DNA of 39,906 nt from a virus, in the IMG/VR virus record IMGVR_UViG_3300043431_000047, positions 1 through 39,906 of that record; one strand, 5' to 3'. Both the position numbers and the translations under genes were made by a program. The notes beneath the pieces are model-generated. The model was not told the DNA's origin and searched no databases. It saw only the letters and a list, made by a program, of their open reading frames with translations. Numbering within the stretch: the stretch's first letter is position 1; every line of letters begins with the position of its first letter. Positions 1 to 37,886 of this stretch are shown here, piece after piece.

Positions 1-10
1 ATACACTTAT

Positions 11-48
11 AGTCTTATATAAGACTTCTATATATTACTTAAGTAATA
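11..48. repeat. Two perfect 16-bp palindromes
   Basis: AGTCTTATATAAGACT at 11-26 and TATTACTTAAGTAATA at 33-48 each equal their own reverse complement. Six bases separate them. They could bind dimeric proteins or extrude as small cruciforms. The nine-base core TTAAGTAAT recurs at 39888-39896 near the other end of the window. Function is unknown. Confidence 0.75.
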
Positions 49-74
49 GGTTATGTATGGACATTACTATCGAA

Positions 75-88
75 GGGGGGTGGGGGGG
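75..88 (+). other. Double G-run (G6-T-G7)
   Basis: Six G, one T and seven G in a row stand out in an AT-rich stretch. A further six-G run lies at 208-213. It could be a weak quadruplex or a protein site, or partly an assembly error, since long homopolymers are often miscounted. Confidence 0.5.
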
Positions 89-214
89 AAAACTCATGCT
101 TCTCTATTTATACGAGTCAAGACATGACAAAATTCAATATACTTTTGAGTTTTTACCTTTTTAAGCCCTACAATCGATTTGTTTTACTTTAGACATACCA
201 GCATATAGGGGGGA

Positions 215-313
215 ATGATTAAAGCGATTCTAGGGGCCTTCTTTGCAGTCCTGGGGGTATATCTGATATCGACGTATCGCTCCTTTCCTGCGGAAACTCG
301 CGGGCGTAGCTGA
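215..313 (+). CDS. Possible 32-residue single-span membrane peptide
   Basis: An ATG at 215 opens 32 codons ending in TGA at 311. Residues about 4-19 are strongly hydrophobic (ILGAFFAVLGVYLI) and are followed by a polar, basic tail (YRSFPAETRGRS), as in small phage or bacterial membrane peptides. A purine-rich AGGGGGGA stretch lies immediately before the ATG; its first AGG is at a usable Shine-Dalgarno distance. The stretch is clearly richer in G and C than its surroundings, which fits coding or structured RNA. No homologue is recognised. It may be a chance ORF. Confidence 0.35.
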   Translation: MIKAILGAFFAVLGVYLISTYRSFPAETRGRS

Positions 314-333
314 GGGTTACACTACGTAGTATA

Positions 334-378
334 ATTATAGTTACTCATATATACTTCGTATATATTCATAACTATAAT
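334..378. repeat. AT-rich long inverted repeat
   Basis: The left arm contains TATAGTTACTCATATATAC (336-354) and the right arm GTATATATTCATAACTATA (358-376), separated by TTC. The arms pair over two blocks of eight or more bases around a three-base mismatch, and two more A-T pairs extend the stem outward. It sits in a stretch that is almost only A and T (314-503). It would lie in the leader of the leftward transcript. It may be an unwinding element, an RNA hairpin or a protein site. Confidence 0.6.
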
Positions 379-504
379 ATAATACTAAATAAAAAACTAT
401 ACATAAAATATAAAAACATATACTCATAAATATATAAATATATTTACTCGTATATATATATTTTATATATAGCTTTTTATTAAGTATTATAATATACTAT
501 ATAG

Positions 505-533
505 AGGGTAACATAAAACATCCTCTTTGTCAA
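505..533 (-). promoter_or_regulatory. Candidate leftward sigma-70 promoter
   Basis: On the - strand a perfect -35 box TTGACA (533-528) is followed, after 17 bases, by TACCCT (510-505). This keeps the key T, A and final T of the -10 box but not the middle. Transcription would run towards position 1 and off the window. In a circular or permuted genome it would enter the leftward replication block at 39872. The -35 match and spacing are seen directly; activity is inferred. Confidence 0.5.
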
Positions 534-582
534 GGGCCTTTAGGCCCACTCGGTGCTCCGCACATAATACCCCTAAAGGGGT
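534..582. other. Two small GC-rich hairpins between the divergent promoters
   Basis: GGGCC-TTTA-GGCCC lies at 534-547 and ACCCC-TAAA-GGGGT, with a stem of four to five pairs, at 569-582. Neither is followed by a clear T-run in the + direction. They sit between the -35 boxes of the leftward and rightward promoters and may be weak terminators or regulatory structures. Confidence 0.45.
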
Positions 583-587
583 CCCTT

Positions 588-637
588 CCTTTGTTGATAA
601 ACACAGTACCTTTGTTTATTAAACACAGTATCTTTGT
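588..637. repeat. 22-bp direct repeats upstream of the rightward promoter
   Basis: AAACACAGTACCTTTGT at 599-615 recurs as AAACACAGTATCTTTGT at 621-637 with one mismatch and a 22-base period. A third partial copy, CCTTTGTTGATAAACACAGTA at 588-608, overlaps the first. The array ends about ten bases before the -35 box. Two turns of helix per repeat fits an operator or activator site on one DNA face; origin iterons are an alternative. Confidence 0.6.
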
Positions 638-646
638 CCAAAACAC

Positions 647-675
647 TTGACAATTGATTTTTTTTATGGTATAAT
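647..675 (+). promoter_or_regulatory. Consensus sigma-70 promoter for the rightward block
   Basis: TTGACA at 647-652 and TATAAT at 670-675 are separated by exactly 17 bases, a perfect match to the consensus of the bacterial housekeeping promoter. The start of transcription should be near 682, about 45 bases before the first gene of the late block. It indicates use of host RNA polymerase, in keeping with the lack of a phage RNA polymerase gene. Confidence 0.85.
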
Positions 676-726
676 CTTTATATAGAGTGTTATTTTTTAA
701 TAACCATTCAGTTTAAGGATATTTGT

Positions 727-1359
727 ATGGAGAATACATCAAAACAAAGTAACAGAGGTAGATTGGTTTATGTGCGCGCTAAGGGCAAGACCTCTGCGAA
801 CAAGACCGGCCACTGGGCAGACAAGATCAAAATGCGCGCCGTCGAGTTGGTCATGCAAGGTTTGACTTCACGAGAAGTTAGCCTGGAGCTTAAGGTTCCC
901 ATGAGCACAATCACGATTTGGCGTGGCGAGAAGTGGTTTAAAGAGACCATTAAAGAAATTCAAGAGGACGATGGGTATAAGCTTGACCACAAGCTAACCG
1001 CCCTCATGCACGGCTCGCTGGACGCCATGCAGGATCGCTTGGTCAATGGTGATTTTGTACGTGATGACAAGACAGGCAAAATCGTCAGGGTCCCTGTGAA
1101 GATCCGCGATGCGAACAATGCCTTTAATACGATGATGGACAAGCGCCAGCTCCTACGCAAGCAACCAACAAAGATTACAGATAATGCATCTGTTAACCAA
1201 CAACTACACCTACTCGCTAATGAGTTCAAGAAGTTTCTTGGCAAGCGGGTAGACGATACGCAAGTAACCAACATTATTGAAGGCGACCATGTGTTCATCA
1301 ATGAGGATGGTACAGGTGATTGGGTAGATCCAGAGGAGAATATAAATGGCGAAGTTTAG
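727..1359 (+). CDS. Terminase small subunit (probable)
   Basis: The 210-residue protein is the first gene of the late block and is probably the DNA-recognition subunit of the packaging motor. Residues about 38-66 look like a helix-turn-helix (VELVMQGLTSREVSLELKVP), the usual N-terminal module of terminase small subunits. The middle is helical and charged, as in the oligomerisation region, and the C-terminus is acidic. AAGGA lies seven bases before the ATG. It overlaps the muramidase gene by 14 bases. The large subunit lies only 1.7 kb downstream, separated by lysis and HNH genes. The assignment rests on fold pattern, size and position; a regulator with the same domain is a less likely alternative. 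Confidence 0.65.
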   Translation: MENTSKQSNRGRLVYVRAKGKTSANKTGHWADKIKMRAVELVMQGLTSREVSLELKVPMSTITIWRGEKWFKETIKEIQEDDGYKLDHKLTALMHGSLDAMQDRLVNGDFVRDDKTGKIVRVPVKIRDANNAFNTMMDKRQLLRKQPTKITDNASVNQQLHLLANEFKKFLGKRVDDTQVTNIIEGDHVFINEDGTGDWVDPEENINGEV

Positions 1360-1849
1360 TCCTGCTTTTGATAGCATGATCATTAGTGAAGGTGGATATC
1401 TTCTAACAAACATCCCAGGTGATACCGGTGGTCAGACATATGCCGGAATCAGCAGACGCCATTGGCCTAACTGGCCAGGCTGGCTCTATGTGGATCGTAA
1501 GGAAACACCTCCCACACAGCTTGTGCGCGACTTCTACAAAGAACAGTTCTGGGATGTTATCAAAGGTGATGAACTAAATGACCAACGTATGGCTGAGTCT
1601 ATCTTCAGCTTTGCTGTTAATACCGGTACTAAGGTAGCAGTCAAACTCGCTCAGATCGTAGTAGGTACTGCTCCAGATGGTGTGCTAGAATCTAAAACAG
1701 TGTCTGCTTTAAACACCATCTCACCACATATTTTTATGCCTTCATACACAGTAGCCAAAATCGCTCGGTACCGTGATATTGTCATGAAGAATCGATCACA
1801 ATCCAAGTTCTTGCTTGGTTGGATCAATCGCACTTTGAAGGATGCCTAA
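1346..1849 (+). CDS. Endolysin, GH108 N-acetylmuramidase
   Basis: This 167-residue protein should cleave the glycan backbone of peptidoglycan to release progeny. The N-terminus carries the glycoside hydrolase family 108 signature SEGGY, with the likely catalytic Glu15, followed by DTGGQTYAGI at 26-35. The C-terminal half matches the small peptidoglycan-binding domain that usually follows (FSFAVNTG near residue 90). There is no signal peptide, so export depends on the holin encoded next. GAGGAG lies seven bases before the ATG, which is inside the end of the preceding gene. Length is normal for the family. Confidence 0.88.
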   Translation: MAKFSPAFDSMIISEGGYLLTNIPGDTGGQTYAGISRRHWPNWPGWLYVDRKETPPTQLVRDFYKEQFWDVIKGDELNDQRMAESIFSFAVNTGTKVAVKLAQIVVGTAPDGVLESKTVSALNTISPHIFMPSYTVAKIARYRDIVMKNRSQSKFLLGWINRTLKDA

Positions 1850-2271
1850 TGAATCCAATATTAACTATGGGTCTTGGTAGTATTGTAGAGACAGTTGGTA
1901 AAGTTGCTGATGATTTGTTTACGAGTGATGAGGAGCGCATCAAAGCCGAACTGGAGGCATACACAGCAGAGACAGATCGCGCTGCCCTCCAAACTGAAGT
2001 AAATAAAGTAGAAGCCTCCCACTCTTCAATCTTTGTAGCTGGCTGGCGTCCTGCGATTGGCTGGATTGGTGCCGGGGCTATGGGGTATCAGTTTATTGTT
2101 TACCCATTCCTTACTTGGGGTTGGGCGATAATGCAGGCTAATGAGTGGATTCCACTAACATTGACAGCACCACCGATTCTACCAACAGACGCTTTGTGGA
2201 TCATACTTACAGGCATTCTGGGTCTAGGCGCAGCACGCTCCTTTGATAAAAAGATTGGTACTGCTAAATGA
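1849..2271 (+). CDS. Holin, 3TM family
   Basis: The 140-residue protein probably forms inner-membrane holes that let the muramidase reach the wall. A charged helical N-terminal region precedes hydrophobic segments in the second half: AIGWIGAGAMGYQFIVYPFL, a second near WGWAIM, and ALWIILTGILGLGAA. The SIFVAGWRPAIGW motif and the C-terminal basic tail fit the three-span holin family first described for gene transfer agents. The start is the ATG of TAATG at the muramidase stop, with AAGGA six bases upstream. An in-frame TTG at 1819 is less likely. Confidence 0.82.
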   Translation: MNPILTMGLGSIVETVGKVADDLFTSDEERIKAELEAYTAETDRAALQTEVNKVEASHSSIFVAGWRPAIGWIGAGAMGYQFIVYPFLTWGWAIMQANEWIPLTLTAPPILPTDALWIILTGILGLGAARSFDKKIGTAK

Positions 2272-2304
2272 CTATCACAGATAAACAATCTAAGGGGAAC
2301 AAAA

Positions 2305-2760
2305 TTGCCATACATGACCAAGAAACCTCATGGAAACCTAGGAAGGAAAAATCCTCATGGCACGGTGGAGTACGGCAAGCTGACCCGCGAGGAGCAGTTG
2401 GCATATCACCGAGAGAAGAATAAAGCATATTATTTGAAACGTGTCGGGGCGCTTAAGCGGATTAGTCCTTTGGAAAACACACCAGAACGTATTGCACAAC
2501 GTGCACGAGATAAAGCAAATCTGCGAGCCACCCGTGCGAAACAAGCTAGATTTTATGACGAACTAACCGAGTTGGTTGTCAAAGAAGCCCATGCGCTTCG
2601 CAAGCTACGCAACGAAAAAACTGGGATTGAATGGCATGTGGATCACATAGTACCTTTGAGGGGTAGCGGGGTTTGTGGTCTTCATATTTGGAGTAATCTT
2701 GCAGTGATCCCCAAAGGTGATAATCTGCGTAAGGGGAACTATCATTCCGTACATGACTAA
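2305..2760 (+). CDS. HNH endonuclease, free-standing (first copy)
   Basis: The product is about 151 residues, with a basic helical N-terminal half and a C-terminal HNH nuclease domain: WHVDHIVPL with D113-H114, N131 in the middle, and PKGDNLRKGN at 136-145. Such free-standing HNH proteins act as homing endonucleases in phages. The start is uncertain: AAGGGG at 2292-2297 is seven bases from TTG 2305 but sixteen from ATG 2314. Positions 2292-2322 resemble 2731-2761, the ribosome binding site and start of the next gene, so this gene seems to carry a copy of its neighbour's start. Its K-G-N codons AAG GGG AAC form that neighbour's Shine-Dalgarno site. Confidence 0.85.
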   Translation: MPYMTKKPHGNLGRKNPHGTVEYGKLTREEQLAYHREKNKAYYLKRVGALKRISPLENTPERIAQRARDKANLRATRAKQARFYDELTELVVKEAHALRKLRNEKTGIEWHVDHIVPLRGSGVCGLHIWSNLAVIPKGDNLRKGNYHSVHD

Positions 2761-3052
2761 TGGAAGACGTGATTATAAAAAAGAAGAGGCTCGGTATGAA
2801 AAGAAACACCCAGAACGTGATGGTGCCAGAGCCCAGCGTAACCGAGCACGCGGACTTGTCGCAAAGAAAAAAGGCGTGAAACGTACAGCTATTGTCGGAG
2901 ATGTTGGGCATCGTAAGGCAGTAAGCAAGGGTGGGGCTAATGGCCTAGCTAACTTGTTTGTACAAAATCCAGGTCAGAATAGAAGCTTTTCCCGAAATAA
3001 AGATGGGAGCATGAAGAGTGAGCGAAGTAAACGAGAGTCCCGTAGAAAGTAA
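2753..3052 (+). CDS. Small HNH-like protein next to the terminase
   Basis: The 99-residue, very basic protein starts inside the last codons of the HNH gene. Its C-terminal half, GHRKAVSKGGANGLANLFV followed by QNRSFSRN, resembles small HNH-fold proteins found beside phage terminase genes, with the basic N-terminal part typical of that group. The first Asp-His pair expected of an active HNH is not intact here (VGHRK), so activity is doubtful. It may help packaging or be a decayed nuclease. The ATG at 2753 is sixteen bases from AAGGGG; an ATT at 2744 has the better spacing. The large terminase starts within its 3' end. Confidence 0.6.
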   Translation: MTNGRRDYKKEEARYEKKHPERDGARAQRNRARGLVAKKKGVKRTAIVGDVGHRKAVSKGGANGLANLFVQNPGQNRSFSRNKDGSMKSERSKRESRRK

Positions 3053-4571
3053 AGTAACACTAGATAAACACATTGTTGAGGGTTTCGTCGGTTCTTGTCT
3101 TACACCTTACTTCGACAACCCTGTTCCTTTTAAAGATTTTCATAGGGAGCTTTGGGAACTATGCACAGGCCCGGACCAGTTCGTAGCAGTGTGTGCTCCA
3201 CGGAGACACAGCAAGTCAACAACGGTTACAGTAAGTTATACGATGGCCGCTGCTTTGTTTCGCCAGGCGAAGTTTGTAATCATTGTGTCGGACACCGTAG
3301 CCCAGTCTGTGTTGTTCCTGGGTCAGATCAAACAGATCTTGGAGGACTCGAAACAAATTCAGTCACTATTTGGTTTGCCAGTGGATGAAAAGGGTTTAAT
3401 CTACGAGAAGTGTACAGAAGACGACATTATTGTAAAGTTTAATGATGGTCATAAGTTCCGCGTTATGGCCAAAGGTGCAGAGCAAAAGTTGCGCGGCTTA
3501 CTCTTCGAGGGTGCTCGTCCAGATTTGATTATATGTGACGACATACTCAACGAAGAGCTGGTTGCCAATAAAGATCGCCGTGAAAAGCTACGTAGATGGT
3601 TCTACGGTTCGCTGGTTCCGTGCAGATCCAAGGATGGTAGGTTGATTCTTGTGGGTACTCCAATGAATTTGGATGATATTCTAGAATCACTTATGCCATC
3701 AGAGAGAGCAAAGACAACTCATGTAGAAGACCTTAAGATCTGGTCAGAAAAGAAGTCTGGTATGTGGCGTACTATGAAGTATCGTGCACATAACGCTGAC
3801 TTTAGTAGGATCTTATGGCCAGAAATGCATAGCAAAGAGTCACTACAAGAACTTAGAACAGAGCTAACTGAACAGGGTATACCTGAAGTTTATTCCTGTG
3901 AAATGCTGTGTAATCCTGTGGATGACTCTATCCGCTACTTCCGCAAAACGGACTTCCTACCAATGACGGAGGAAGACAAGAAAAAGAATTTAACATACTA
4001 CATAACCGCTGACTTAGCGATTTCTGAGAAGGATCGTGCTGACTATACCGCAATTGTGGTAGGTGGTATGGACCATAACGGACAGTTACACATCGTACAT
4101 GTGATCAGGGATCGTATTGCCGGTGATGCTATCGTCGAAACGCTCCTTGCCCTACAAAAAACCTATGATCCACAGGCTGTGGGTATTGAGGATACACAGA
4201 TTTCCAAGGCCATTGGCCCATATCTCAACAGAGCTATGATGGAATCAGGCATTTATCTAAACATTGTACTACTTAAGCCACACCGCCAAGACAAAATCCA
4301 GCGTGCTCGTTCTATTCAAGCTAGAATGCGTGCGGGTCAGGTCAAATTTGACAAGGATGCTGATTGGTGGGACATTTTCTTTGATGAATGCCTGTCTTTT
4401 CCACGTGCTAAACACGATGACGTGGTTGATGCACTGTCTTATCAGGGTATATTGATTGATTATATGTCTGAAGGTATGACAAAAGAAGAAATAGACGACG
4501 AAGAATATGAAGACACTTACAATAAATCTGGCCATAGCGACTTAGGCCGTGACTCTTGCACAGGATACTGA
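3018..4571 (+). CDS. Terminase large subunit
   Basis: The 517-residue motor protein packages DNA into the prohead by ATP hydrolysis and cuts the concatemer. The N-terminal ATPase has a Walker A variant CAPRRHSKST at 59-68 and a Walker B, LIICDD, at 170-175. The C-terminal RNase H-like nuclease shows Asp332 in ITADLAIS, an acidic GIEDTQ near 390, and KHDDVVDAL with D467, D468 and D471. Length and order are normal. The start is a GTG with GGGAG eight bases upstream, 35 bases inside the preceding gene. The portal gene follows two bases after the stop. Headful packaging is plausible given the P22-like portal, but not shown. Confidence 0.93.
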   Translation: MSEVNESPVESKVTLDKHIVEGFVGSCLTPYFDNPVPFKDFHRELWELCTGPDQFVAVCAPRRHSKSTTVTVSYTMAAALFRQAKFVIIVSDTVAQSVLFLGQIKQILEDSKQIQSLFGLPVDEKGLIYEKCTEDDIIVKFNDGHKFRVMAKGAEQKLRGLLFEGARPDLIICDDILNEELVANKDRREKLRRWFYGSLVPCRSKDGRLILVGTPMNLDDILESLMPSERAKTTHVEDLKIWSEKKSGMWRTMKYRAHNADFSRILWPEMHSKESLQELRTELTEQGIPEVYSCEMLCNPVDDSIRYFRKTDFLPMTEEDKKKNLTYYITADLAISEKDRADYTAIVVGGMDHNGQLHIVHVIRDRIAGDAIVETLLALQKTYDPQAVGIEDTQISKAIGPYLNRAMMESGIYLNIVLLKPHRQDKIQRARSIQARMRAGQVKFDKDADWWDIFFDECLSFPRAKHDDVVDALSYQGILIDYMSEGMTKEEIDDEEYEDTYNKSGHSDLGRDSCTGY

Positions 4572-4573
4572 CT

Positions 4574-6628
4574 ATGGTTGAATTTAAATTGAAGTTGGAC
4601 AAGATTATGTCCTCTAATAACATCGCGGATTCTCTTGATGAAGACCAACTGATTTACATTGGTAATCAAGTATCTGTTGGTTATGAAAATGATCTAGCTT
4701 CACGTAAGGACTGGGAAAAAGATCTAACTAATTGGACAGAGCTAGCCCTACAAATATCCAATGACAAGACATATCCTTGGCCGAATGCTGCAAATATCAA
4801 ATACCCACTACTAGCTACGGCTGCAATGCAGTTCGCAGCAAGAGCCTATCCAACCTTGGTACCATCTAACGGTAAAATCGTTAAAGTCAAGATTGTTGGT
4901 TCTGATCCTCAGGGGGAGAAAGCTGCTAGAGCCAAGCGTGTATCCACACACATGTCTTACCAACTAATTGATGAGATGTCTGATTGGGAAGAGGATATGG
5001 ACAAGCTCCTTATCACACTACCAATCGCTGGTACCTGCTTCAAGAAGACCTACTGGGACCCTAACAAGCAACGTAACTGTTCTAAGTTGGTTCTACCAAA
5101 GACATTGGTTGTTAATTACTGGACTCGCAATATCGAGGATGCTGAACGCATCACAGAAATTTTCTACCTATCCAAGCGGAAAGTTACTGAGCGTATTAAT
5201 CAAGGTATCTATATTGATGCAGAACTTGGTGATCCACAACAGTCTGTTGATGATCCTACCACCTCAGTAAATAAAGCATTTCAACGGAATACTTCAGACG
5301 ATGATGCCACACCCTACCTCATTCTGGAACAGCATACCTATTTCGATCTTGATGGTGATGGTTATCCTGAACCTTACATCGTTACTGTAGAAGAAGCAAC
5401 TAAAAAGGTTCTTCGTATTGTTCCACGATTCTCTGAATCAGGAGTAATGGTTAATGACAAAAATAAGATTATGGCCATCGAAGCCACACAGTACTATACA
5501 AAGTATGGCTTTATTCCCAACCCAGATGGCGGCTTTTACGACATCGGTTTTGGGCGTCTTTTGGGGCCTCTCAACAACAGTGCTAACACAATCATTAACC
5601 AACTGGTTGATGCTGGATCACTAAGTAATCTACAAGCAGGCTTTATTGGTAAAGGTCTGCGTATCAAGATGGGTGAATCTAGGTTCCAGCCTGGTGAATG
5701 GAAAGCTGTCAACGCCGTTGGCGACGATCTTAAGAAGCAGATCTTCCCGCTTCCTGTTCGTGAGCCATCTCAAGTCCTATTCAACCTACTTGATCTATTG
5801 CTCAAGTCAGGTAAAGAATTGGCCTCCGTCGCAGAAATCTTTGTTGGCAAGATGCCTGGCCAGAACACTCCGGCCACGACTACGATGGCGACTATCGAGC
5901 AAGGCATGAAGGTATTTACTGCTGTCTATAAGCGTATATATCGTAGCCTCACTAAAGAGTTCCGCAAGATCTATGCACTCAATCGAGAGTATATGAATCA
6001 CGAGGAGTATGTATCCGTACTTGATGAACCTGTACCACAGTCTGATTATCAAGGACCGGAAGATGATATTATCCCCGGTGCTGATCCTACGGCTGTTTCT
6101 TCACAAGAGAAACAAGCCAAGCTTCAGTCCGTAATGCAGATCATGCAAATGGGTACTATTGATCCTATGTGGTTTACCCAACAGTATCTAGAAGCACATG
6201 AGATTCCTAACGCTGAAAAAGCTTTGAAGCAACCTAGCCCACCGCCCCCAGATCCTAAGATGGAAGCACTGAAGGCTAAGGCACAGGTTGATCAACAGAA
6301 GGCACAGATGGACATGCAGATGGCCTCTGCCAAGCTACAGATGGAAGGTGCCGCTAAGGAACAAGAAGCTCGCATGAAAGCTGAGATGCTACGTGAGCAG
6401 CTTAAAGGTAAACAAATGGAAGCTGTCCTTAAGGGTAAAGCAGCGATCCAAGACATGCAGATTAAGGGTGCTCAGGCACAACAGAATATGGCCACACAGG
6501 CCATGCAACACCACCAGAGCTTGGTGCAACAACATCAAACTGGTCAACAAACGCTCCGACTAAAAGAGCAACAAGCCAAACAACAATCCAAAGGGGATGT
6601 AAAGAATGAGTCTAGTAAGTCTAGGTGA
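4574..6628 (+). CDS. Portal protein, P22-like
   Basis: The 684-residue protein forms the dodecameric ring at the head vertex through which DNA enters and leaves. Size and N-terminal pattern, including the WPNAANIKYPL segment and the following helix, fit the large podovirus portals of the P22 type. From about residue 555 the chain becomes a long Gln-, Met- and Lys-rich helix after a proline stretch (PSPPPPDPK), which matches the C-terminal barrel extension of P22-like portals. AGGATACTGACT precedes the ATG at 4574; an in-frame TTG at 4556 overlaps the terminase and is less likely. The end overlaps the next small gene by 23 bases. Confidence 0.88.
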   Translation: MVEFKLKLDKIMSSNNIADSLDEDQLIYIGNQVSVGYENDLASRKDWEKDLTNWTELALQISNDKTYPWPNAANIKYPLLATAAMQFAARAYPTLVPSNGKIVKVKIVGSDPQGEKAARAKRVSTHMSYQLIDEMSDWEEDMDKLLITLPIAGTCFKKTYWDPNKQRNCSKLVLPKTLVVNYWTRNIEDAERITEIFYLSKRKVTERINQGIYIDAELGDPQQSVDDPTTSVNKAFQRNTSDDDATPYLILEQHTYFDLDGDGYPEPYIVTVEEATKKVLRIVPRFSESGVMVNDKNKIMAIEATQYYTKYGFIPNPDGGFYDIGFGRLLGPLNNSANTIINQLVDAGSLSNLQAGFIGKGLRIKMGESRFQPGEWKAVNAVGDDLKKQIFPLPVREPSQVLFNLLDLLLKSGKELASVAEIFVGKMPGQNTPATTTMATIEQGMKVFTAVYKRIYRSLTKEFRKIYALNREYMNHEEYVSVLDEPVPQSDYQGPEDDIIPGADPTAVSSQEKQAKLQSVMQIMQMGTIDPMWFTQQYLEAHEIPNAEKALKQPSPPPPDPKMEALKAKAQVDQQKAQMDMQMASAKLQMEGAAKEQEARMKAEMLREQLKGKQMEAVLKGKAAIQDMQIKGAQAQQNMATQAMQHHQSLVQQHQTGQQTLRLKEQQAKQQSKGDVKNESSKSR

Positions 6629-6830
6629 GTTTCAAGAGTGGAAACAAAACGTAGTTACCAAGGCGTTTATGCAGGCAGCACAGGAGCGTATCTATGACGC
6701 CATGCAGGTGCTCTCTGTACAAGCCGGGATGGATAGTGTACAAGATAACTATCTTCGTGGCCTGATTACAGCCTACAGGGAACTGGCGGATTTTCGTATT
6801 GATGATCTCGTTAATATGGAGGCCGAATGA
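6606..6830 (+). CDS. Small conserved-looking protein between portal and co-chaperonin
   Basis: This is a 74-residue, helical and acidic protein. The pattern (DNYLRGLITAYRELADFRID) resembles small phage proteins that often follow portal genes, but I cannot name a function. AAGGGG lies about nine bases before the ATG, inside the portal reading frame. The stop overlaps the ATG of the GroES-like gene, which suggests translational coupling. Confidence 0.7.
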   Translation: MSLVSLGEFQEWKQNVVTKAFMQAAQERIYDAMQVLSVQAGMDSVQDNYLRGLITAYRELADFRIDDLVNMEAE

Positions 6831-7138
6831 TTATCCCTCTATTGCATGGCATTCTAATTAAACCAGATAATGTCGAGAAGAAGACTGATGGTGGTATTAT
6901 TATCCCAGATATGGTAACAGAAAAAGAGCGTAAGGCTGTTGAATACGGCACCGTAGTACGTACAGGTCCACAAGCATTTATTGATTATGGTAGATCACCA
7001 GATATCCTTAGTGCCGGAGATCGAGTTTCTTTTGCTAGGTATGCTGGCAAAGAAGTGCGTGATACAGATGATGCTGTATATCTTTTAGTAAACGATGTAG
7101 ATATTTTATGTCTAGTGACGGAGAATGTAGATGAGTGA
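6827..7138 (+). CDS. GroES-like co-chaperonin
   Basis: The 103-residue protein is about the length of bacterial GroES. It shows the Cpn10 pattern: a start with LLHGILIKPD, a mobile-loop region EKKTDGGIIIPD in which III stands where the GroEL-binding IVL tripeptide lies, GTVVRTGP, and the GDRVSFARYAGKEV strand near the end. It should cap host GroEL and widen or retune the cage for folding the capsid protein, as gp31 does in phage T4. It is coupled to the small gene before it, has GGAGG just upstream, and runs directly into the scaffold gene, which supports a head-assembly role. Confidence 0.88.
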   Translation: MIIPLLHGILIKPDNVEKKTDGGIIIPDMVTEKERKAVEYGTVVRTGPQAFIDYGRSPDILSAGDRVSFARYAGKEVRDTDDAVYLLVNDVDILCLVTENVDE

Positions 7139-7940
7139 AGAAAACACCCAAGTTCAGGTAGAAGAACAAGTTGATGCACCCGCAGTAGAACAACAGGAAC
7201 AACAATCAGCACCAGCGGATTCCCATGAGGAACAAGCTCGTGAACAAGGTTGGCGTCCAAAAGAAGAGTGGGATGGCGATCCAGAGAAATGGCGTCCTGC
7301 TAAGGAGTTTGTTGAGCGAGGTGAGCTTTTTGGTAAGATTGATTCCATGGGCAAAGAACTTAAAGAGACCCGCAAGGCTCTTAAGATGCTACAGGATCAC
7401 CATACTAAAGTAAAAGAAACCGAGTACAATCGAGCCGTAGTTGAATTGAAGGCTCTGCAAAAGAAGCATCTAGAAGAAGGCAACTCAGATGGTTATCTAG
7501 AAACCTCAGAGCTTCTCACAGATCTTAAGGCAGAGCAGAAAGCTCGTGAAGTTGCAGCAGAGATGACACCACAACAGCCACACCCAGACTTTGTTAGTTG
7601 GGTCAATAGCAATAAGTGGTACACCGCTGATGTAGAAATGCACGATTATGCCGATGCAGTGGGCCAACGATATGCCAGCAATAATCCTGGTATTGACCCC
7701 AACGCAGTTCTCAACTTTGTTTCAAAACAAGTTCGTAATCGGTTTAAAGAAAAGTTTCAGAACCCCAATAGGGGGAAGCCTTCACCAGTAGAAGGGTCAA
7801 ACGACACAAGACAACCCAAACAGGACTCTTTTAAGATGTCTGATGAGGAACGTAAGGTAATGAATACCTTTGTTCGTACAGGTGTTATGACAGCAGATGA
7901 CTATATTACACAAGTAAAAGCCATGAGAGGTGTTAAATGA
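7131..7940 (+). CDS. Scaffolding protein (probable)
   Basis: The 269-residue protein is highly charged, with a Glu/Gln-rich disordered start, a conserved-looking GWRPKEEWDGDPEKWRPA segment near 40-57, and coiled-coil helices around 70-145. The second half is mixed and polar with a basic end. This composition and its place between portal and capsid genes are typical of podovirus scaffolding proteins, which shape the prohead and then leave. It overlaps both neighbours by a few bases. No protease motif is visible. The assignment is by pattern and position. Confidence 0.75.
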   Translation: MSEENTQVQVEEQVDAPAVEQQEQQSAPADSHEEQAREQGWRPKEEWDGDPEKWRPAKEFVERGELFGKIDSMGKELKETRKALKMLQDHHTKVKETEYNRAVVELKALQKKHLEEGNSDGYLETSELLTDLKAEQKAREVAAEMTPQQPHPDFVSWVNSNKWYTADVEMHDYADAVGQRYASNNPGIDPNAVLNFVSKQVRNRFKEKFQNPNRGKPSPVEGSNDTRQPKQDSFKMSDEERKVMNTFVRTGVMTADDYITQVKAMRGVK

Positions 7941-8326
7941 GTAGAGTACAAGAAAAGCGTGTAGCACGCAAGCCAATGTTTCAACGGGGTCCACAGAGTA
8001 TCACTGGCGATAAGGACCCAGATTTCGAGTACCGCTTTGTTAACGATACCGGTAGTCGAGTAACCAACTTCCAATCCGCTGGTTATGAACTCGTCCAAGA
8101 TGAGTCCATTGTGGTTGGAGATTCTCGTGTTTTTGACCCCTCGGATTTGGGATCTGCTAAATGTGTTACCAGTAATGATGGAACTAAATCATACCTAATG
8201 CGTATTAAAAAGGAATGGTACAAGGAAGATCAGACTGCGAAACAATCACAGATCGACGAAACTGAGAAGGCAATGAAAACCGATGCCTCCCGTGCTTCTG
8301 ATTACGGTTCATTTAAGGTGAACTAA
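7937..8326 (+). CDS. Unknown head-region protein
   Basis: The 129-residue protein begins with a basic stretch and contains FEYRFVNDTGSRVTNFQSAGYELV, a pattern seen in small phage proteins encoded upstream of capsid genes. The C-terminal third is a charged helix. It is coupled to the scaffold gene by ATGA. The function is unknown; a minor head or assembly role is inferred from position only. Confidence 0.65.
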   Translation: MSRVQEKRVARKPMFQRGPQSITGDKDPDFEYRFVNDTGSRVTNFQSAGYELVQDESIVVGDSRVFDPSDLGSAKCVTSNDGTKSYLMRIKKEWYKEDQTAKQSQIDETEKAMKTDASRASDYGSFKVN

Positions 8327-8378
8327 TAACAACTAAACACGGGGAGCATCTCAATAATTCTGAAAGGAAATAAAGAGT

Positions 8379-8954
8379 ATGGCTAACATCTCTAAAATCG
8401 CTGGCTTTAAGCCAGTAAAGCATATTAGTGGCTCCCCCTATTCTGGTCAAGCTAACATTTATGCCGTAGTCAGTGGTACTAAACTAGTCCCTGGTGACTT
8501 GGTTAAACTGACTGGTGCTGCATCACAGAATGGTATCGCAGAAGTCTCTGCCGCTACTAATGATGCCGCCGTTCTTGGTGCTGTTGTTGGTGTTGTTCCA
8601 GCAAAGATGGACCCTGTAACTGGTCGTATGTCTGGTGGTTCTATTTCACTTGACACTCCTGTATCCGTTACTGGTGGCGCAACTGCTGCGTATGTACTCG
8701 TTGCAGATGCACCAGACATTGTTTATGAGGCCCAGAAAGCTACCTTCTCCGCCGCTGATGTAGGAACCACTGGTGGTTTCGACTTCACTGGTACTGTTGG
8801 TGGTGATGCAACTACTGGCACCTCGTCTTTCGCTATTACTGACACCGCCACTGGCGTTGTTCAGGTTCTCGGCCTAGTTCAGCGTGTTGATAATGAGTCC
8901 GGCGCATATGCCAAGGTACTCTGCCGCATCACCAATAACAACTTCGCCCTATAA
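8379..8954 (+). CDS. Probable head decoration or stabilisation protein
   Basis: The 191-residue protein is rich in Gly, Ala, Thr and Val, with beta-strand pattern and few charged residues in the middle, as in capsid-binding proteins. The start, MANISKIAGFKPVKHISGSPY, resembles proteins encoded just before major capsid genes in several podoviruses. AAAGGA precedes the ATG. It sits 17 bases before the capsid gene in the same strand. Decoration is the best guess. Confidence 0.6.
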   Translation: MANISKIAGFKPVKHISGSPYSGQANIYAVVSGTKLVPGDLVKLTGAASQNGIAEVSAATNDAAVLGAVVGVVPAKMDPVTGRMSGGSISLDTPVSVTGGATAAYVLVADAPDIVYEAQKATFSAADVGTTGGFDFTGTVGGDATTGTSSFAITDTATGVVQVLGLVQRVDNESGAYAKVLCRITNNNFAL

Positions 8955-8971
8955 TTAGGAAAGGATAAATA

Positions 8972-9886
8972 ATGTCAGGCATTATCACTTCTAGCTCGTT
9001 TGCTAAACTTCTCTGGCCAGGTCTTAACTCCATCTACGGTAAGGAGTATGCAGACTATCCCGTTGAATGGGACAAGCTCTTCGAGAAGAATTCCTCTGAT
9101 CGTGCATACGAAGAGGATCTCGGTCTAAGCTCATTCGGTCTTGCTTCAGTCAAGAACGAGGGCGCTCCAATCACTTATGACTCAGAGCGTCAAGGCTTCA
9201 CCTCACGGTACAACCATGTTGTGTATGCACTTGGTTTTATCATCACCCGCGAAATGTATGAAGATGACCAGTACGGTAAAGTCGGTGCCCAAAAGGCAAA
9301 GGCTCTTGCCCGTTCTATGCGTCATACTAAGGAAATCGTTGGTGCTAACATTTATAACCGTGCCTTCGCTGGTTCTGGTTTCCTAGGTGGCGATGGCAAG
9401 ACCCTGCTTGCTTCCGATCACCCCAATGTTGCTGGTGGTTCTTTCTCCAACGTCATTGGCACTGCTGCTGACCTGTCCGAAGCTGCTCTTGAACAAGCCG
9501 TTATCGACATCGCGGGTTTCCGTGATGATCGTGGTCTGCTCATCGCTGCTAAGCCAGAGAAGCTCGTCATTCCTTACCAACTCCAGTTTGAAGCTAAGCG
9601 GATTCTTGGTTCTGATGGTCGTGTCGGTACTGATCTAAATGATCCTAACGTCCTCAAGGATATGGGTATCTTTAGTAATGTCATTACCAACCACTACCTC
9701 ACCGATGCAGATGCTTGGTTCATTCTAACTAGCGTTAAGGATGGTCTCAAGTACTTTGAGCGTCGTGGTGATCAGTTCGAGATGGACAATGACTTCGATA
9801 CCGAGAACGCTAAGTACAAGGCTACTGCTCGTTACTCCTTTGGCTGGAGCGATCCACGCGCAATCTATGGTTCGGCTGGTGCCTAA
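8972..9886 (+). CDS. Major capsid protein
   Basis: The 304-residue protein is probably the main shell subunit with an HK97-type fold. It has the expected order: a helical N-terminal arm, an E-loop-like segment (GAPITYDSERQGFTSRYNH), a long spine helix region (GKVGAQKAKALARSMRHTKE), and a C-terminal beta-rich end with RYSFGWSDPRAIYG, like other Mu-type capsid subunits. It has a strong Shine-Dalgarno site (AAAGGA), dense common-codon usage, and a hairpin directly after it, all fitting high expression. It lies between scaffold and decoration genes. Confidence 0.85.
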   Translation: MSGIITSSSFAKLLWPGLNSIYGKEYADYPVEWDKLFEKNSSDRAYEEDLGLSSFGLASVKNEGAPITYDSERQGFTSRYNHVVYALGFIITREMYEDDQYGKVGAQKAKALARSMRHTKEIVGANIYNRAFAGSGFLGGDGKTLLASDHPNVAGGSFSNVIGTAADLSEAALEQAVIDIAGFRDDRGLLIAAKPEKLVIPYQLQFEAKRILGSDGRVGTDLNDPNVLKDMGIFSNVITNHYLTDADAWFILTSVKDGLKYFERRGDQFEMDNDFDTENAKYKATARYSFGWSDPRAIYGSAGA

Positions 9887-9894
9887 TTAACTCA

Positions 9895-9914
9895 ATAGGG
9901 GCTTCGGCCCCTAT
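9895..9914 (+). terminator. Perfect hairpin with UUCG loop after the capsid gene
   Basis: ATAGGGGC-TTCG-GCCCCTAT is an eight-pair stem with an extra-stable UUCG tetraloop, nine bases after the capsid stop codon. No T-run follows, so it is more likely an mRNA-stabilising element or a partial attenuator than a full terminator. Confidence 0.75.
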
Positions 9915-9931
9915 ATAGAAAGGAATTAATT

Positions 9932-10339
9932 ATGGCAGCTTATGGTATTGGTCCAGCAGGTGTAACTACAATTACACCAGCAGCACGGGACCCGTATGTA
10001 AAGATGGGTGTTCTAGAAGTAGCAGACGGTTCTACCGGATTCGCCGCTTTCGGTCTACCTAAGTACGCTGTGGTTGTTGGTGTCTACGCAATCTCAGCAG
10101 GTGCAAATACAACCCAAACCATTAACGTCGGTTTCACAAATGGTGGTGTTGAACTTGTTGATACTTATGCACCGAACTCCACAGGTTATGCCGCGATTGG
10201 CGGTACTGATACTGGAGCATCTGTAGGTGTTCAACTAACATCAGATAAGACTGTGTATCTCAAGGCTAGCGCAACGCTAACCAGTCGGGTTATTGTCAAG
10301 GTGGAATACATCATCCCACCACAAGGTCTGAGTCTGTAG
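9932..10339 (+). CDS. Probable capsid-associated or decoration protein
   Basis: The 135-residue protein has a beta-rich, low-charge composition (Gly, Ala, Thr, Val). It follows the major capsid gene and precedes a strong terminator, so its transcript level should match that of the capsid. AAAGGA lies seven bases before the ATG. No fold is recognised; it may be a head fibre base, decoration protein or small virion protein. Confidence 0.6.
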   Translation: MAAYGIGPAGVTTITPAARDPYVKMGVLEVADGSTGFAAFGLPKYAVVVGVYAISAGANTTQTINVGFTNGGVELVDTYAPNSTGYAAIGGTDTGASVGVQLTSDKTVYLKASATLTSRVIVKVEYIIPPQGLSL

Positions 10340-10346
10340 TAAACCC

Positions 10347-10390
10347 ATAGGGGGTAGATTGTGTAACAGCAGTTTACCCCCTATTTTTTT
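10347..10390 (+). terminator. Rho-independent terminator after the capsid genes
   Basis: ATAGGGGGTA at 10347-10356 pairs perfectly with TACCCCCTAT at 10375-10384, with an 18-base loop, and runs into seven T (10384-10390). It sits eight bases after a stop codon. I see no promoter between it and the next gene at 10402, so downstream genes need read-through. It probably sets a lower expression level for them than for the capsid. Confidence 0.88.
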
Positions 10391-10401
10391 GAGGAAAAAT
10401 A

Positions 10402-10710
10402 ATGCGTCCACAAGTAATAAGCAAGACAGGTACAGGAACAACGGCGTGGATTCCAGTAGACTATAAACAAAGTCCATTCAATGTCGGACTCGGCGTTGTT
10501 GTTGATGGCACGATCACCTATAATATCGAACACACGTTTGATGATGTGTTTGATACTACTGTAACACCCACAGCTTTCATCCACTCAGTTCTTACAGCAC
10601 AGACTGCAAATAAGGATGGGAACTATGCTTTCCCAGTGCGCGCTGTGCGTATTAACAACACCGCTGGTACTGGTAGCACAACACTTACTCTCCTACAAGG
10701 ACTCCGATAA
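10402..10710 (+). CDS. Small virion-region protein
   Basis: The 102-residue protein has beta-strand pattern with many Thr, Val and Gly, and few charges. GAGGA lies six bases before the ATG and directly after the terminator T-run. It may be a structural protein of the virion surface; similar short proteins follow capsid genes in many phages. Function unknown. Confidence 0.6.
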   Translation: MRPQVISKTGTGTTAWIPVDYKQSPFNVGLGVVVDGTITYNIEHTFDDVFDTTVTPTAFIHSVLTAQTANKDGNYAFPVRAVRINNTAGTGSTTLTLLQGLR

Positions 10711-11183
10711 TGAACCTACAAGACATTGCTGATTTTATTGATCTTGTTAAAAATCCAGCCAAGTATGAAACAGTACTTAAGCGATTTCAAGATGAACAGG
10801 GTAGGCTAAATGCTGCTATCGAGACTGTTGGAAAAGCCTCTGAGCTAGACAAACTACGCAAGTCCGTTGAAAAGGAAGCTGAAAAAAATGAAGCTGCTTA
10901 TGTTGAGAAAGTAAAGGCTGCAGAAGCTCGTTTAGAAGCCCAATTTGTTATCGCTGCCGCAGCACAAGCCACTGCTGATGAAGCCAATGAAACTGCCAGG
11001 GCTCTCCTGTCGGAAGCCCAGGTTACCAAAGAGGATGCACTGAAACTACAAGCATCCTTTGAGGGTCGTGATAAATCCTTGAGTAAATCAGAAGAGTCCC
11101 TCAAACAACGACAAGCAAAAGCAGAATCACTTATCGTTGAATACAACGAAAAGCTTGCTAAGCTACGCTCAGTAATGGGTTAA
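10710..11183 (+). CDS. Coiled-coil protein of unknown role
   Basis: The 157-residue protein is nearly all helix, rich in Ala, Glu and Lys, with heptad-like spacing from about residue 20 to the end. It has no membrane segment. It is coupled to the gene before it (TAATG). Such proteins in this position are usually small virion or assembly proteins. Confidence 0.6.
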   Translation: MNLQDIADFIDLVKNPAKYETVLKRFQDEQGRLNAAIETVGKASELDKLRKSVEKEAEKNEAAYVEKVKAAEARLEAQFVIAAAAQATADEANETARALLSEAQVTKEDALKLQASFEGRDKSLSKSEESLKQRQAKAESLIVEYNEKLAKLRSVMG

Positions 11184-11184
11184 T

Positions 11185-11424
11185 ATGAGTGTCTCTATCT
11201 ACCATCGTAATGATTCTAATGTGGATCTACGTTTGGATGAAGCTAGTGCCACAATCACATACTTAGGAGTGGCTGCCATAGACTCATTAGAATCAGCCCC
11301 AGTATGGCAGATCAGGAAGTTTGACCTTACTGGTGGTATTAGCGTTCGATGGGCTGATGGAAATGCTAACTTTGATAATGTCTGGGATGACCGGGCAACA
11401 ATCACATATACAAGAGGAACATAA
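11185..11424 (+). CDS. Small virion-region protein
   Basis: The 79-residue protein has alternating strand pattern and aromatic residues (VWQIRKFDLTGGISVRWADG). It starts one base after the preceding stop and ends directly before the next ATG. Similar short proteins occur before tail fibre modules in other phages. Function unknown. Confidence 0.65.
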   Translation: MSVSIYHRNDSNVDLRLDEASATITYLGVAAIDSLESAPVWQIRKFDLTGGISVRWADGNANFDNVWDDRATITYTRGT

Positions 11425-11859
11425 ATGCCTACAGCTTCATATGTAAAAATCACATCTGCTAACGAAGACCTAGCAGAAGGTATCAATTGCGGTACGGATA
11501 CTTGGGCTATTGCCCTAACCAACACTGTACCTGGTTCTAAAGTCTTCACATCAGGTACTACTGACCTAGCAACCTCAGGTGGTTATACCGCTGGCGGGGC
11601 TACTGTATCAGTTACTTCTTCTGGTATGAACGCCTCAGACTTTGTACTTGTCCTAGCCGATCCGGCAGTCTGGACTGGTTCTGGAGGTGGCTTCACTTTC
11701 CGCTACGCAATCTTGGTTAATAAGACTGTACTTCAGGGTGCTCAGGGTACTAACGTAGCTTACTGGGATTATGGTTCAAGTCAGGCTGTTGCTGCTGGCG
11801 AGACTGTTACAGTAGACCTAGATCAAACTGCTTCAGTGGGTGTGTTTAAGATTACCTAA
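11425..11859 (+). CDS. Small virion protein with beta-rich composition
   Basis: The 144-residue protein is rich in Thr, Ser, Ala, Gly and Val, with a GGYTAGGATVSVTSSGM stretch and an ending of DLDQTASVGVFKIT. This pattern is common in phage surface proteins encoded near fibres. It starts immediately after the preceding stop. Codon use here is still that of the phage's AT-leaning genes, unlike the next gene. Specific function unknown. Confidence 0.6.
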   Translation: MPTASYVKITSANEDLAEGINCGTDTWAIALTNTVPGSKVFTSGTTDLATSGGYTAGGATVSVTSSGMNASDFVLVLADPAVWTGSGGGFTFRYAILVNKTVLQGAQGTNVAYWDYGSSQAVAAGETVTVDLDQTASVGVFKIT

Positions 11860-11867
11860 GGATTTCT

Positions 11868-12719
11868 ATGGGACTTTATGTACCTTCAGCAGGCGACTTC
11901 AAGTGGTGGGCCAGCAATGGGGCATCACGCCCTGCTGCGACCTACGGAACCGCGCTGACACCGGGCACTGCACCGACATTCGGTAGCTGGACTCAGTTGA
12001 TGAGCGGGGCGACGGTTGCTCAAGATGTCTTTGGCATTACGATCAACTTCAACTCGTTCTCTACCTCGGCGACCACGCGCAACGTGCTGGTCGATATTGG
12101 GGTTGATAACGCAGGCGGAACAAGCTACCGGACGGTGATCCCGTACCTGATTGGTGGCCACGCCGCGCCCTATACCGTCGGTTCCGGTGGTCAGTGGTAC
12201 TACTTCCCGCTGTTCATCAAGGCGGGTTCCAGCATCGCAGCACGCGCCATGGGCAACGTGGTCACGGCGGGTCGTTGCATGATTACCGTATTCGGCCAGC
12301 CAAAGCGGCCTGATTCGGTACGTGTCGGCAGCCGGGTGTTTTCCTTCGGCGAAGATACGACGAATGCTATAGGCACTGCCGTTACGCTTGGAACAACAGG
12401 CGACGGTGCTTGGGCGCAAGCAGGATCGGCAACACCGATGCCGTTGTGGTGGTGGCAAACAGGCTACACCTGCGCCGATACCACGATGACTGCCGCGATG
12501 ATTCACCTGGATTGCAGCGCGGGAGATGCAACGAACAAAAAAATTCTCATTCAGGACAGCCCGCTGGTCACCACCTCCGCAGAGCAGATCAGCAACCTGC
12601 CAACGACAGTGGGTTGCGTGGCGAACGTGGCGGCTGGACAAAATGTGTATGTGCGTGGGCAGTCAAGCGCCACGGCGGATTCAACCCCGACGATGATGGC
12701 ATGGGGGCTTGGAGGGTAA
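11868..12719 (+). CDS. GC-rich virion-surface protein of unknown role
   Basis: The 283-residue protein is beta-rich and low in charge, with many Thr, Gly, Ala and aromatic residues, as in phage surface or fibre-associated proteins. Its DNA is much richer in G and C than its surroundings; a sample line at 12241-12300 has 38 of 60 GC, against 19 of 60 at 13141-13200. The shift begins a few codons into the gene, so the ribosome binding site and start look native and the rest foreign. A 238-codon antisense ORF here is an effect of this composition. The function is not known. Confidence 0.65.
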   Translation: MGLYVPSAGDFKWWASNGASRPAATYGTALTPGTAPTFGSWTQLMSGATVAQDVFGITINFNSFSTSATTRNVLVDIGVDNAGGTSYRTVIPYLIGGHAAPYTVGSGGQWYYFPLFIKAGSSIAARAMGNVVTAGRCMITVFGQPKRPDSVRVGSRVFSFGEDTTNAIGTAVTLGTTGDGAWAQAGSATPMPLWWWQTGYTCADTTMTAAMIHLDCSAGDATNKKILIQDSPLVTTSAEQISNLPTTVGCVANVAAGQNVYVRGQSSATADSTPTMMAWGLGG

Positions 12720-35932: not shown

Positions 35933-36649
35933 TTAGTGAATGTCCATGTTTGGACCTACCAGAACCTCTCCCAGCATGGGCAAGTTCCAGTTAATATCGT
36001 ATGCTTGTGACACACGCTTTGGTAATTCCTTAAAAACATCAAGGAAAATCTCTTCTACATTTGCTACCTCCTTCTCAGGACAATCCGCTACTATAGAATC
36101 ATGTACTGTATTAACAAGCAAAGATCGTAGTTTATATTTATCAAACTTTTGTTTGGTAATAATGCGTGCAACTGACATAACATCTGCACCTAATCCTTGG
36201 TTGATATAGTTACAAATGTCTGATTCATTCCAGACTAGCTCACCTCTTTTCTTTTGTGGTTCAAAGTCATATACCCTACCGAGTGGGGAAACTAATTGAC
36301 CTGTCTTCTTAACAGTTTCAATATAATTCAAGTGAGTCTTATGTAATCCTTTGTACTTACTATAGTACCTATCAATAACATCTTGCCAGAAGTCAACCTT
36401 GCGTGAGACACCCATGAAATCTGGATCACGGCTATAGGCAAAGGCAGAACCGCGATAGATCCAACGAAAGAGAAACACCTTAGCTACTAGTCGTGACGGT
36501 AGCTTGAAGGCTGTCTCATTAGCACGATGAATATCATTCTTGCTTGGATCATTAACTACACCATACCATTCTTCAACACCTACAGGATCTTGTGAGAGGA
36601 ATAAGTATGTACACCATTCCAGGCTCTTAGCATCTACCTGCACTATCAT
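35933..36649 (-). CDS. DNA polymerase family A, C-terminal half (palm and fingers)
   Basis: This 238-residue ORF carries the polymerase active site: motif A, VDAKSLEW, with D6 and E11; motif B, R53-x3-K57-x3-F61-x3-Y65; and motif C, VHDS at 182-185, with Ser where Glu is usual. It starts just where motif A begins. It has its own AAGGAG six bases before the ATG and an in-frame TAA directly before it, so it must be translated separately. Together with the ORF before it, it rebuilds a full polymerase. It needs the partner for the exonuclease and thumb. Confidence 0.9.
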   Translation of the reverse strand: MIVQVDAKSLEWCTYLFLSQDPVGVEEWYGVVNDPSKNDIHRANETAFKLPSRLVAKVFLFRWIYRGSAFAYSRDPDFMGVSRKVDFWQDVIDRYYSKYKGLHKTHLNYIETVKKTGQLVSPLGRVYDFEPQKKRGELVWNESDICNYINQGLGADVMSVARIITKQKFDKYKLRSLLVNTVHDSIVADCPEKEVANVEEIFLDVFKELPKRVSQAYDINWNLPMLGEVLVGPNMDIH

Positions 36650-36695
36650 TTAGCTCTCCTTAAGCCGGAATTTTTTTTGCATATTTTTCAGTTTT

Positions 36696-37886
36696 TTAGG
36701 TTTTAAATCTGCTTATACAGAATTGTTTAGCTTGTGCTGGTTGGTTCTGTACGTTTGGTTTGTTACTAGCCAAGCGACCAGATACAACAACACATTGGTT
36801 TAGATTGGAGTGAATAATGTTATCATCCCAATCCATCTCTTTAATTCTCTTTGGTAGACCGGTTAGGTAAGTTGAGTTTAGTTTCTGTAGCTTTACCCTT
36901 TCTTGGTATAGTTTAATGAGTGCCTTAGCAGGGCCACGTGCAGCGAGTTTGCCGAGGGTATCTTCATTGATGGACCATATCCCTTCAGCGGCCATCTCCG
37001 TGCCAGCCAGCGGCTCTACAAGGCGTTCTAAGACGTGCTCTCGTTCAAACTTCTTCATCTTTACTTCACCCTTGCGGAGACCGGTTTTAAATACACCGAT
37101 GGGGGCGGAGAATTCCTCCTTAACAATACCACCATACAATAGTTTTGATATTTGTTGGGGAGAATCAAAGTTAAATGGGAAAGACAGCTTGCCTATTTGG
37201 GTCATCTTGCTATCAATAGCTACTACTTCTTGTGTTAGTTTATCAGCTTCCGCCAGTGATCCCTCTACATCGTACAAGATACCGTTGTATTCCATCTCTT
37301 GTAACACAAGCAAATCGTTACACTGTACCCTAAAAAGCTTGTATTTTGAGGCATGTTTTCCTTCAAAGTCCTTAACTTGGTCAGCGAATAAGGCTAAAGT
37401 ACTTTCACCATCTTGAATTACATACTCTTTTAGGGTCTGAAACGGTATATCCTTGGTGTCAATTCCTTTATCCCAGTATTCTTGCTTGACAATATCAATT
37501 TTTCTTGGTAAACCGCGTTTATGACAGGACTCATCAAGCGAGGGATATCTCCACGTCTGGTTACTGAGTAAAAATTCTCCAAGCTGGCAGTCCCACACGG
37601 ACTTGGGAACCAATCCGAACTCCCGACGAATCCAGTGTATGTCAAATTTGCCATTAAATGTAATCCATAGGTCAGATTTCTCCAATGTTCGTGCTAATTG
37701 TGTAAATGTTTGTGGTAAAAATACTTGACTTTTGTTATCCAGTGTGGTAACAACAGCCATCTCAAGAGTATTGCGTGTACTAAACGGGTGTCCCTTCAAA
37801 TAAATTGATGTTTCGACATCCATTACGACGGGATTCGAGTAGTTCTTCGTCAACGTCGTGACGAGTGATGACTTCATCAAGTCCAT
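36696..37886 (-). CDS. DNA polymerase family A, N-terminal half (exonuclease and thumb)
   Basis: This 396-residue ORF has a complete 3'-5' proofreading domain: Exo I D23-x-E25 (VMDVETS), Exo II FNGKFD with D82, and Exo III Y155-x3-D159. It is followed by the thumb region. It ends after VVSGRLASNKPNVQNQPAQAK and ISRFKT, the conserved stretch just before motif A, where it meets TAA. The start is ATG 37886 with AAGGA six bases upstream; TTG 37892 is less likely. The next ORF continues the polymerase after a 46-base gap. Confidence 0.9.
   Translation of the reverse strand: MDLMKSSLVTTLTKNYSNPVVMDVETSIYLKGHPFSTRNTLEMAVVTTLDNKSQVFLPQTFTQLARTLEKSDLWITFNGKFDIHWIRREFGLVPKSVWDCQLGEFLLSNQTWRYPSLDESCHKRGLPRKIDIVKQEYWDKGIDTKDIPFQTLKEYVIQDGESTLALFADQVKDFEGKHASKYKLFRVQCNDLLVLQEMEYNGILYDVEGSLAEADKLTQEVVAIDSKMTQIGKLSFPFNFDSPQQISKLLYGGIVKEEFSAPIGVFKTGLRKGEVKMKKFEREHVLERLVEPLAGTEMAAEGIWSINEDTLGKLAARGPAKALIKLYQERVKLQKLNSTYLTGLPKRIKEMDWDDNIIHSNLNQCVVVSGRLASNKPNVQNQPAQAKQFCISRFKT

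Follow-up and report, generated by a model that had tools for sequence, protein, structure and literature searches.

A divergent promoter region with origin-like features and a putative leader RNA in a group of uncultured phages

IMG/VR virus record IMGVR_UViG_3300043431_000047 (39,906 bases, classed as linear; analyzed whole and here called the window) carries near its left end two back-to-back promoters, P_L and P_R. These promoters and their surroundings probably constitute a conserved divergent early/late control region combined with an origin-like region, in which the RNA leading the P_L transcript would be new. Judged from sequence comparison, this control region is common to the whole phage group. 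Rightward genes, from position 727, encode a terminase-small-like protein, endolysin, holin, endonuclease VII, large terminase, and portal, so that the terminase/lysis/structural block lies on the P_R side; leftward genes, from position 39,872, encode endonuclease VII, DnaB helicase, polymerase pieces, exonuclease, and ribonucleotide reductase, the replication block of the P_L side. The preliminary description had taken the region for a switch of both transcription blocks; that the promoters head the two blocks is supported by this layout and by the conservation of the divergent pair. A GroES-like co-chaperonin gene (6827 to 7138, plus strand) lies close downstream of the portal gene, and the DNA polymerase matches (35933 to 37892, minus strand) fall in two adjacent ORFs that correspond to successive parts of one PHROG profile.

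The window starts short of the genes directly after P_L, as comparison with a 13,518-bp contig (L004) shows. L004 has identity over positions 1 to 12,333 of the window, extends 1,185 bp to the left of base 1, and has no match to the right end of the window; in it, a leader of about 1.1 kb precedes the first large leftward ORF. Relatives that look complete are about 46 to 53 kb long. Of the sequenced isolates searched, the one that matches best is Alcaligenes phage vB_Af_QDWS535 (OK172329; 50,121 bp, circular record), for which literature searches gave no match. Its gene order is that of the window, its leftward block begins 1.3 kb to the left of the small terminase (TerS) gene, and, judged against it, the window probably lacks some 10 kb of early genes. 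For comparison, we hand-picked 72 loci with a TerS match and at least some 320 bp of upstream sequence. Near-duplicates (L014/L122 and L151/L154/L157/L158/L159) were kept in the promoter and GCGA/GAGC counts (72 loci each) and dropped in the periodicity, GC-hairpin, C-tract, and GA/GA loop counts. The elements between the two blocks are as follows.

505 to 533, minus strand: P_L, with -35 TTGACA (533 to 528), a 17-bp spacer, -10 TACCCT (510 to 505), and a TG extension; predicted start near 498.
534 to 547, no strand: palindrome GGGCCTTTAGGCCC, with a CCTTTAGG core common to the second palindrome; mostly absent in relatives.
569 to 582, no strand: palindrome ACCCCTAAAGGGGT; mostly absent in relatives.
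588 to 646, plus strand: three phased repeats of about 22 bp with core CTTTGTTnATnAA, copies lying near 590 to 609, 611 to 630, and 633 to 646 (partial).
647 to 675, plus strand: P_R, TTGACA-17-TATAAT with TG before the -10; predicted start near 682.
727 to 1359, plus strand: TerS-like gene, the first rightward gene; weak HTH_23 match, candidate binder of the repeat array.

The perfect rightward promoter claimed in the preliminary description is borne out: P_R, with its TG, is the sole 12/12 sigma-70 match in the window, which has no match with one mismatch; at two or fewer mismatches, there are 9 matches versus 6.3 by chance. The good leftward promoter facing away from it is also present, with a perfect -35, a nonconsensus -10, and 9/12 consensus matches; our first promoter scan missed it because 4/6 was required in the -10. 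The starts expected near 498 and 682 agree with those predicted from P_L and P_R. In the related loci, we searched 450 bp upstream of TerS with a score that counted matches at the 12 consensus positions and gave a small bonus each to TG and to a spacer of 17 bp. The best P_R reaches at least 11.5 in 51/72 loci and the best P_L in 31/72 (shuffled fraction, 0.001 for each), and a divergent pair with both at or above 11.5 recurs upstream of the small-terminase gene in 25/72 (shuffled fraction, 0.0000; 20 shuffles per locus). A good pair is absent in several loci, isolate QDWS535 among them (best P_R, 9.0). About 206 to 128 bp upstream of TerS in L040, a near-perfect palindrome of about 38 bp contains the two -35 boxes of the divergent promoters.

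TTGACA-17-TACCCT, the form of the window, is the best P_L in 7/72 loci and in 7 of the 10 P_L sequences of an independent set, in which L177 and L184 seem to represent a single virus and L182 and L150 are the same contig. The TACCCT -10, usually TATGATACCCT, occurs in the window (505 to 510, minus strand), L010, L012, L019, L026, L031, and L125, and no intermediates between TACCCT and TATAAT were seen by eye. By the counts in these two sets, TACCCT recurs as an alternative -10 of P_L. A 52-locus promoter-gap set (loci with P_R below 10.5 dropped, P_R of L089 placed by hand, 8 loci without P_L) was ranked in a way that favored TACCCT, and the counts were drawn from the other two sets instead.

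The two hairpins and the repeats of about 22 bp that the preliminary description listed between the promoters are all in the window, and their conservation proved to be divided. Such GC hairpins occur in 5/43 promoter gaps (shuffled mean, 1.2; largest, 3) and are not clearly a family feature; the conserved hairpins lie instead in the P_L transcript, to the left of 505. A role of the GC hairpins as terminators was rejected, since they lie outside both predicted transcripts, between back-to-back promoters, and are mostly absent in relatives. The phased repeats did hold up. In the window, the stretches 598 to 615 and 620 to 637 are 94% identical at a spacing of 22, a further partial copy lies at 633 to 646, and the consensus matches nowhere else except at 36104, with 3 mismatches. 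In 37 promoter gaps, self-similarity is raised at lags of 19 to 24 (mean z, 0.41 to 0.75; standard error, about 0.16) and is near 0 at most other lags. By eye, the motif in relatives is CTTGTTAAATA-like with phage-specific variants, the layout being kept while the sequence varies. Because the promoter pair recurs far above shuffles and the gaps share this periodicity, the arrangement of promoters and repeats goes beyond chance.

The array adjoins the -35 of P_R and is a candidate protein-binding array, and it is plausible that the divergent region is a switch. As the preliminary description had it, no repressor gene is recognized: no ORF of at least 50 amino acids lies between the promoters in the window, and the first rightward gene is terminase-like. 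Its idea of a small DNA-binding protein among the other genes fared less evenly. On the one hand, the window TerS has an HTH match (E, 0.0021, below the Pfam cutoff), so that the small terminase is one candidate regulator binding the array; on the other hand, the early proteins scanned for families gave nothing informative, and the ORF to the left of P_L in L004 is without a confident family. The TerS-like protein of the window has no PHROG match, and its homologue in L010 has weak TerS matches.

The same repeats might instead be a pac- or cosB-like packaging site, recognized by the small terminase of the neighboring gene and without regulatory function, which we consider rather unlikely. It would suit the weak HTH match of the adjacent gene product and the repeat sequences that differ among phages within a kept layout, as in a coevolving protein-site pair. 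Many contigs also end 279 to 968 bp upstream of TerS; these distances vary, however, breaks in the assembly at AT-rich or G-tract DNA may account for them, and QDWS535 was deposited as circular. Of the contig starts L006 to L077, 21 lie within that range and only 6 between 1,000 and 2,500 bp, each end being either a genome end or such a break.

On the leftward side, the predicted P_L transcript would take a four-hairpin fold over 278 to 499 (z score, -9.44), and the predicted helices start at the predicted P_L start. Its elements are given in transcript order.

327 to 499, minus strand: closing helix around hairpins 1 and 2 (arms 493 to 499 and 327 to 333), predicted in the window copy only.
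378 to 491, minus strand: hairpin 1, a long AU-rich stem with a tandem G.A internal loop; inner stem at 426 to 447.
334 to 378, minus strand: hairpin 2, with a tandem G.A internal loop.
305 to 326, minus strand: hairpin A, a 6-bp stem with a 10-nucleotide loop, the same in relatives.
278 to 302, minus strand: GCGA-stem-GAGC hairpin; one G.G at the junction in the window copy, which fails the strict descriptor.

Relatives have the same order on the P_L strand (tandem G.A hairpins, then the hairpin with the 10-nucleotide loop, then GCGA-stem-loop-stem-GAGC), and the window copy folds into it independently. A first alignment of 11 hairpin sequences failed structurally, and 4 or 5 closer sequences were used. 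In four sequences, a 15-pair structure has 98.3% of cells paired and compensatory changes in 9/15 pairs (0/500 shuffles); in eight sequences that were fitted to the model, and hence are biased, 10/15 pairs are compensatory. For the two upstream hairpins, 8/41 pairs are compensatory in five sequences. Descriptors for the tandem G.A and GCGA-stem-GAGC elements were composed after the sequences had been viewed. By its descriptor, the GCGA-stem-GAGC hairpin is found at 16/72 loci on the P_L strand versus 0/72 on the opposite strand (shuffled mean, 0.22; maximum, 2). The most frequent type of 2x2 loop on the P_L strand is GA/GA (11/35 in 48 loci, the 11 coming from 8 loci; 0 in 10 rounds of shuffling). 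When a covariance model (R1) was run on 72 sources, five of eight nontraining matches at an E of 5 or less lay immediately upstream of TerS and on the P_L strand (L010, E of 4.5e-6, and, more weakly, L060, L134, L044, and L129) and three lay elsewhere. R1 is correctly placed in only 9/72 sources, 4 of them training sequences, and the window copy matches neither R1 nor the strict GCGA/GAGC descriptor. The RNA is not universal, as an ORF follows P_L directly, after 24 to 94 nucleotides, in L022, L076, and L078.

Another account, which we regard as improbable, would have ordinary divergent early promoters beside AT-rich inverted repeats that are DNA-level features without an RNA role. Both strands indeed fold unusually well (z below -2 in 35/50 minus strands and 31/50 plus strands), and in only 23/50 loci does the P_L strand give the more stable fold, so that it is the G.A loops, the hairpin descriptor, and the promoter that decide the strand. 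Against this account stand the compensatory changes, the GCGA/GAGC hairpins on one strand, and the GA/GA loops. Searches of Rfam 15 at an E of 1 or less gave 0 matches (window 1 to 760, L012 1 to 480, and L112 1 to 1140), and gathering-level Rfam scans of the window and 10 loci gave nothing but two tRNAs in L009. The transcript of P_L appears to contain a folded RNA not described before, beside a probable replication origin. Three other leads were rejected: (i) a hammerhead ribozyme, CTGATGAG on the L009 minus strand, is by eye not kept in L021; (ii) for a tRNA-like sequence in L018, ARAGORN found none; and (iii) a GCGA-loop pattern hit seven viral contigs, of which six lack family genes and look like coding sequence to the eye, so that L168 (the L134 contig) is the one real hit. 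A 32-codon ORF (MIKAILGAFFAVLGVYLISTY...; 215 to 313, plus strand) with a G-rich Shine-Dalgarno-like stretch, possibly encoding a tiny membrane protein, overlaps the P_L RNA on the opposite strand.

Three known systems invite comparison. The lambda immunity region (PL-PR) has divergent strong promoters with repeated sites, as does our locus; unlike it, the window encodes no repressor either between the promoters or next to them. In the case of the HK022 put antiterminator RNA, an early transcript made from a strong divergent promoter begins with hairpins. The P_L leader is likewise predicted to carry 5'-proximal hairpins on an early transcript but has four of them, is AU-rich, and has no demonstrated sequence relation to put; literature searches gave no match for put/HK022. 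GOLLD and ROOL are phage-associated RNAs. One report (PMC12286853) describes them as large structured noncoding RNAs, a likeness to the P_L RNA, which is without an Rfam match in the scans made.

Two further elements lie toward the left end of the window.

121 to 157, minus strand: A/T box, located before the C-tract in relatives; the window copy is divergent.
75 to 88, minus strand: C-tract CCCCCCCACCCCCC on the P_L-transcript strand (a G-tract on the plus strand).

The C-tract is on the P_L-transcript strand in 28/33 loci, versus 0/33 for its mirror (shuffled mean, 2.6). A scan with the C-tract only returned 13 contigs, 11 of them with the TerS family and 10 with P_L 258 to 399 nucleotides upstream. 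A ColE1-like primer RNA ranks low, since the hybrid of a C-rich RNA would be the less favored one. The AT-motif pattern AAAAACATATATAGTTNTTA was also discarded: its seven viral contigs are five known relatives plus L091 and L094 by chance, and its 12 bacterial contigs were counted as background. DnaA boxes (TTAT[CA]CACA) number 25 in 61,460 bases within 1.6 kb upstream of TerS and 10 in 514,629 bases elsewhere, a density about 20-fold higher; in this count, L122, L154, L157, and L158 were dropped and loci needed at least 1,100 bp of upstream sequence to be used. The boxes are present in 11/39 loci; three lie in L004 just to the left of the window, whereas the window itself and L089 have none. 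GC content is 0.30 in positions 1 to 500 of the window and dips to 0.07 to 0.20 in many relatives, the dip adjoining P_L in many loci. The AT-rich tract, the C-tract, and the DnaA boxes of relatives indicate that replication likely starts in this P_L-adjacent region too.

Iteron origins combine helically phased repeats, an A+T-rich region, and DnaA sites (PMC5043065). The locus resembles origins of the lambda ori, P1, and RK2 type in its helically phased direct repeats, in the adjacent A+T-rich region (a candidate unwinding element), and in the DnaA sites of some relatives. It differs in that its repeats lie between two promoters and that no replication initiator family was found among the proteins scanned, about 10 kb of the early block lying outside the window. 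One could take the whole region as a replication origin and nothing else: the repeats would be iterons for an initiator of the phage, the AT-rich DNA an unwinding element, the DnaA boxes sites that recruit DnaA, and the hairpins single-stranded DNA, e.g., for primase or helicase loading, with the promoters incidental or merely origin activating. The iteron-like parts, the DnaA-box enrichment, and the AT-rich dip beside P_L speak for this interpretation, which is nevertheless unlikely, given two near-consensus promoters in a fixed divergent geometry in many loci and repeats that are few (two or three) and packed between those promoters. Moreover, the GA/GA loops and GCGA/GAGC hairpins are confined to the P_L-transcript strand, although single-stranded DNA could form them as well.

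In the combined control and origin region that we favor, host RNA polymerase would start leftward at P_L and reach the replication block through the leader of about 1 kb and would start rightward at P_R toward the terminase, lysis, and structural genes, while a phage-specific DNA-binding protein on the helically phased repeats would set the balance of P_L and P_R. The first 220 nucleotides or so of the P_L transcript would form the conserved RNA (two tandem-G.A hairpins, the 6-bp hairpin, and the GCGA...GAGC hairpin), which would most likely have a cis effect on the polymerase during elongation or on the leader (a first guess is put-like antitermination), and replication would begin near the P_L leader. 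What the sequences themselves show is the promoters, the periodic array, the covariation and strand bias of the RNA, the C-tract, and the enrichment in DnaA boxes; from these we infer the regulator, the transcription, and all functions, that of the RNA included. A bolder proposal, offered tentatively and with more doubt than confidence, is that the leader, a conserved element of four hairpins with sheared tandem G.A pairs, belongs to a new class of early RNAs in phages. It would modify the host polymerase, or prime or time replication at the neighboring origin, and in this way link early transcription with replication throughout the lineage.

QDWS535 resembles the window in its leftward replication block, the gap of about 1.3 kb, the AT-rich tract, the C-tract, and the TerS homologue; its gap holds a 12/12 P_L and several CGTGTT-like repeats. 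It differs in lacking a good P_R in the 450 bp searched, in a TerS identity of 32%, and in having neither a strict GCGA/GAGC hairpin nor, in the 20 kb examined, a DnaA box. Because this isolate has the same layout, the hypothesis is directly testable. The variable repeat arrays of the relatives are a natural set for finding the protein that reads them. If our interpretation is right, the few known phage leader RNAs would be joined by a structured one that Rfam lacks, and the control region of an entire lineage of uncultured phages would be mapped.
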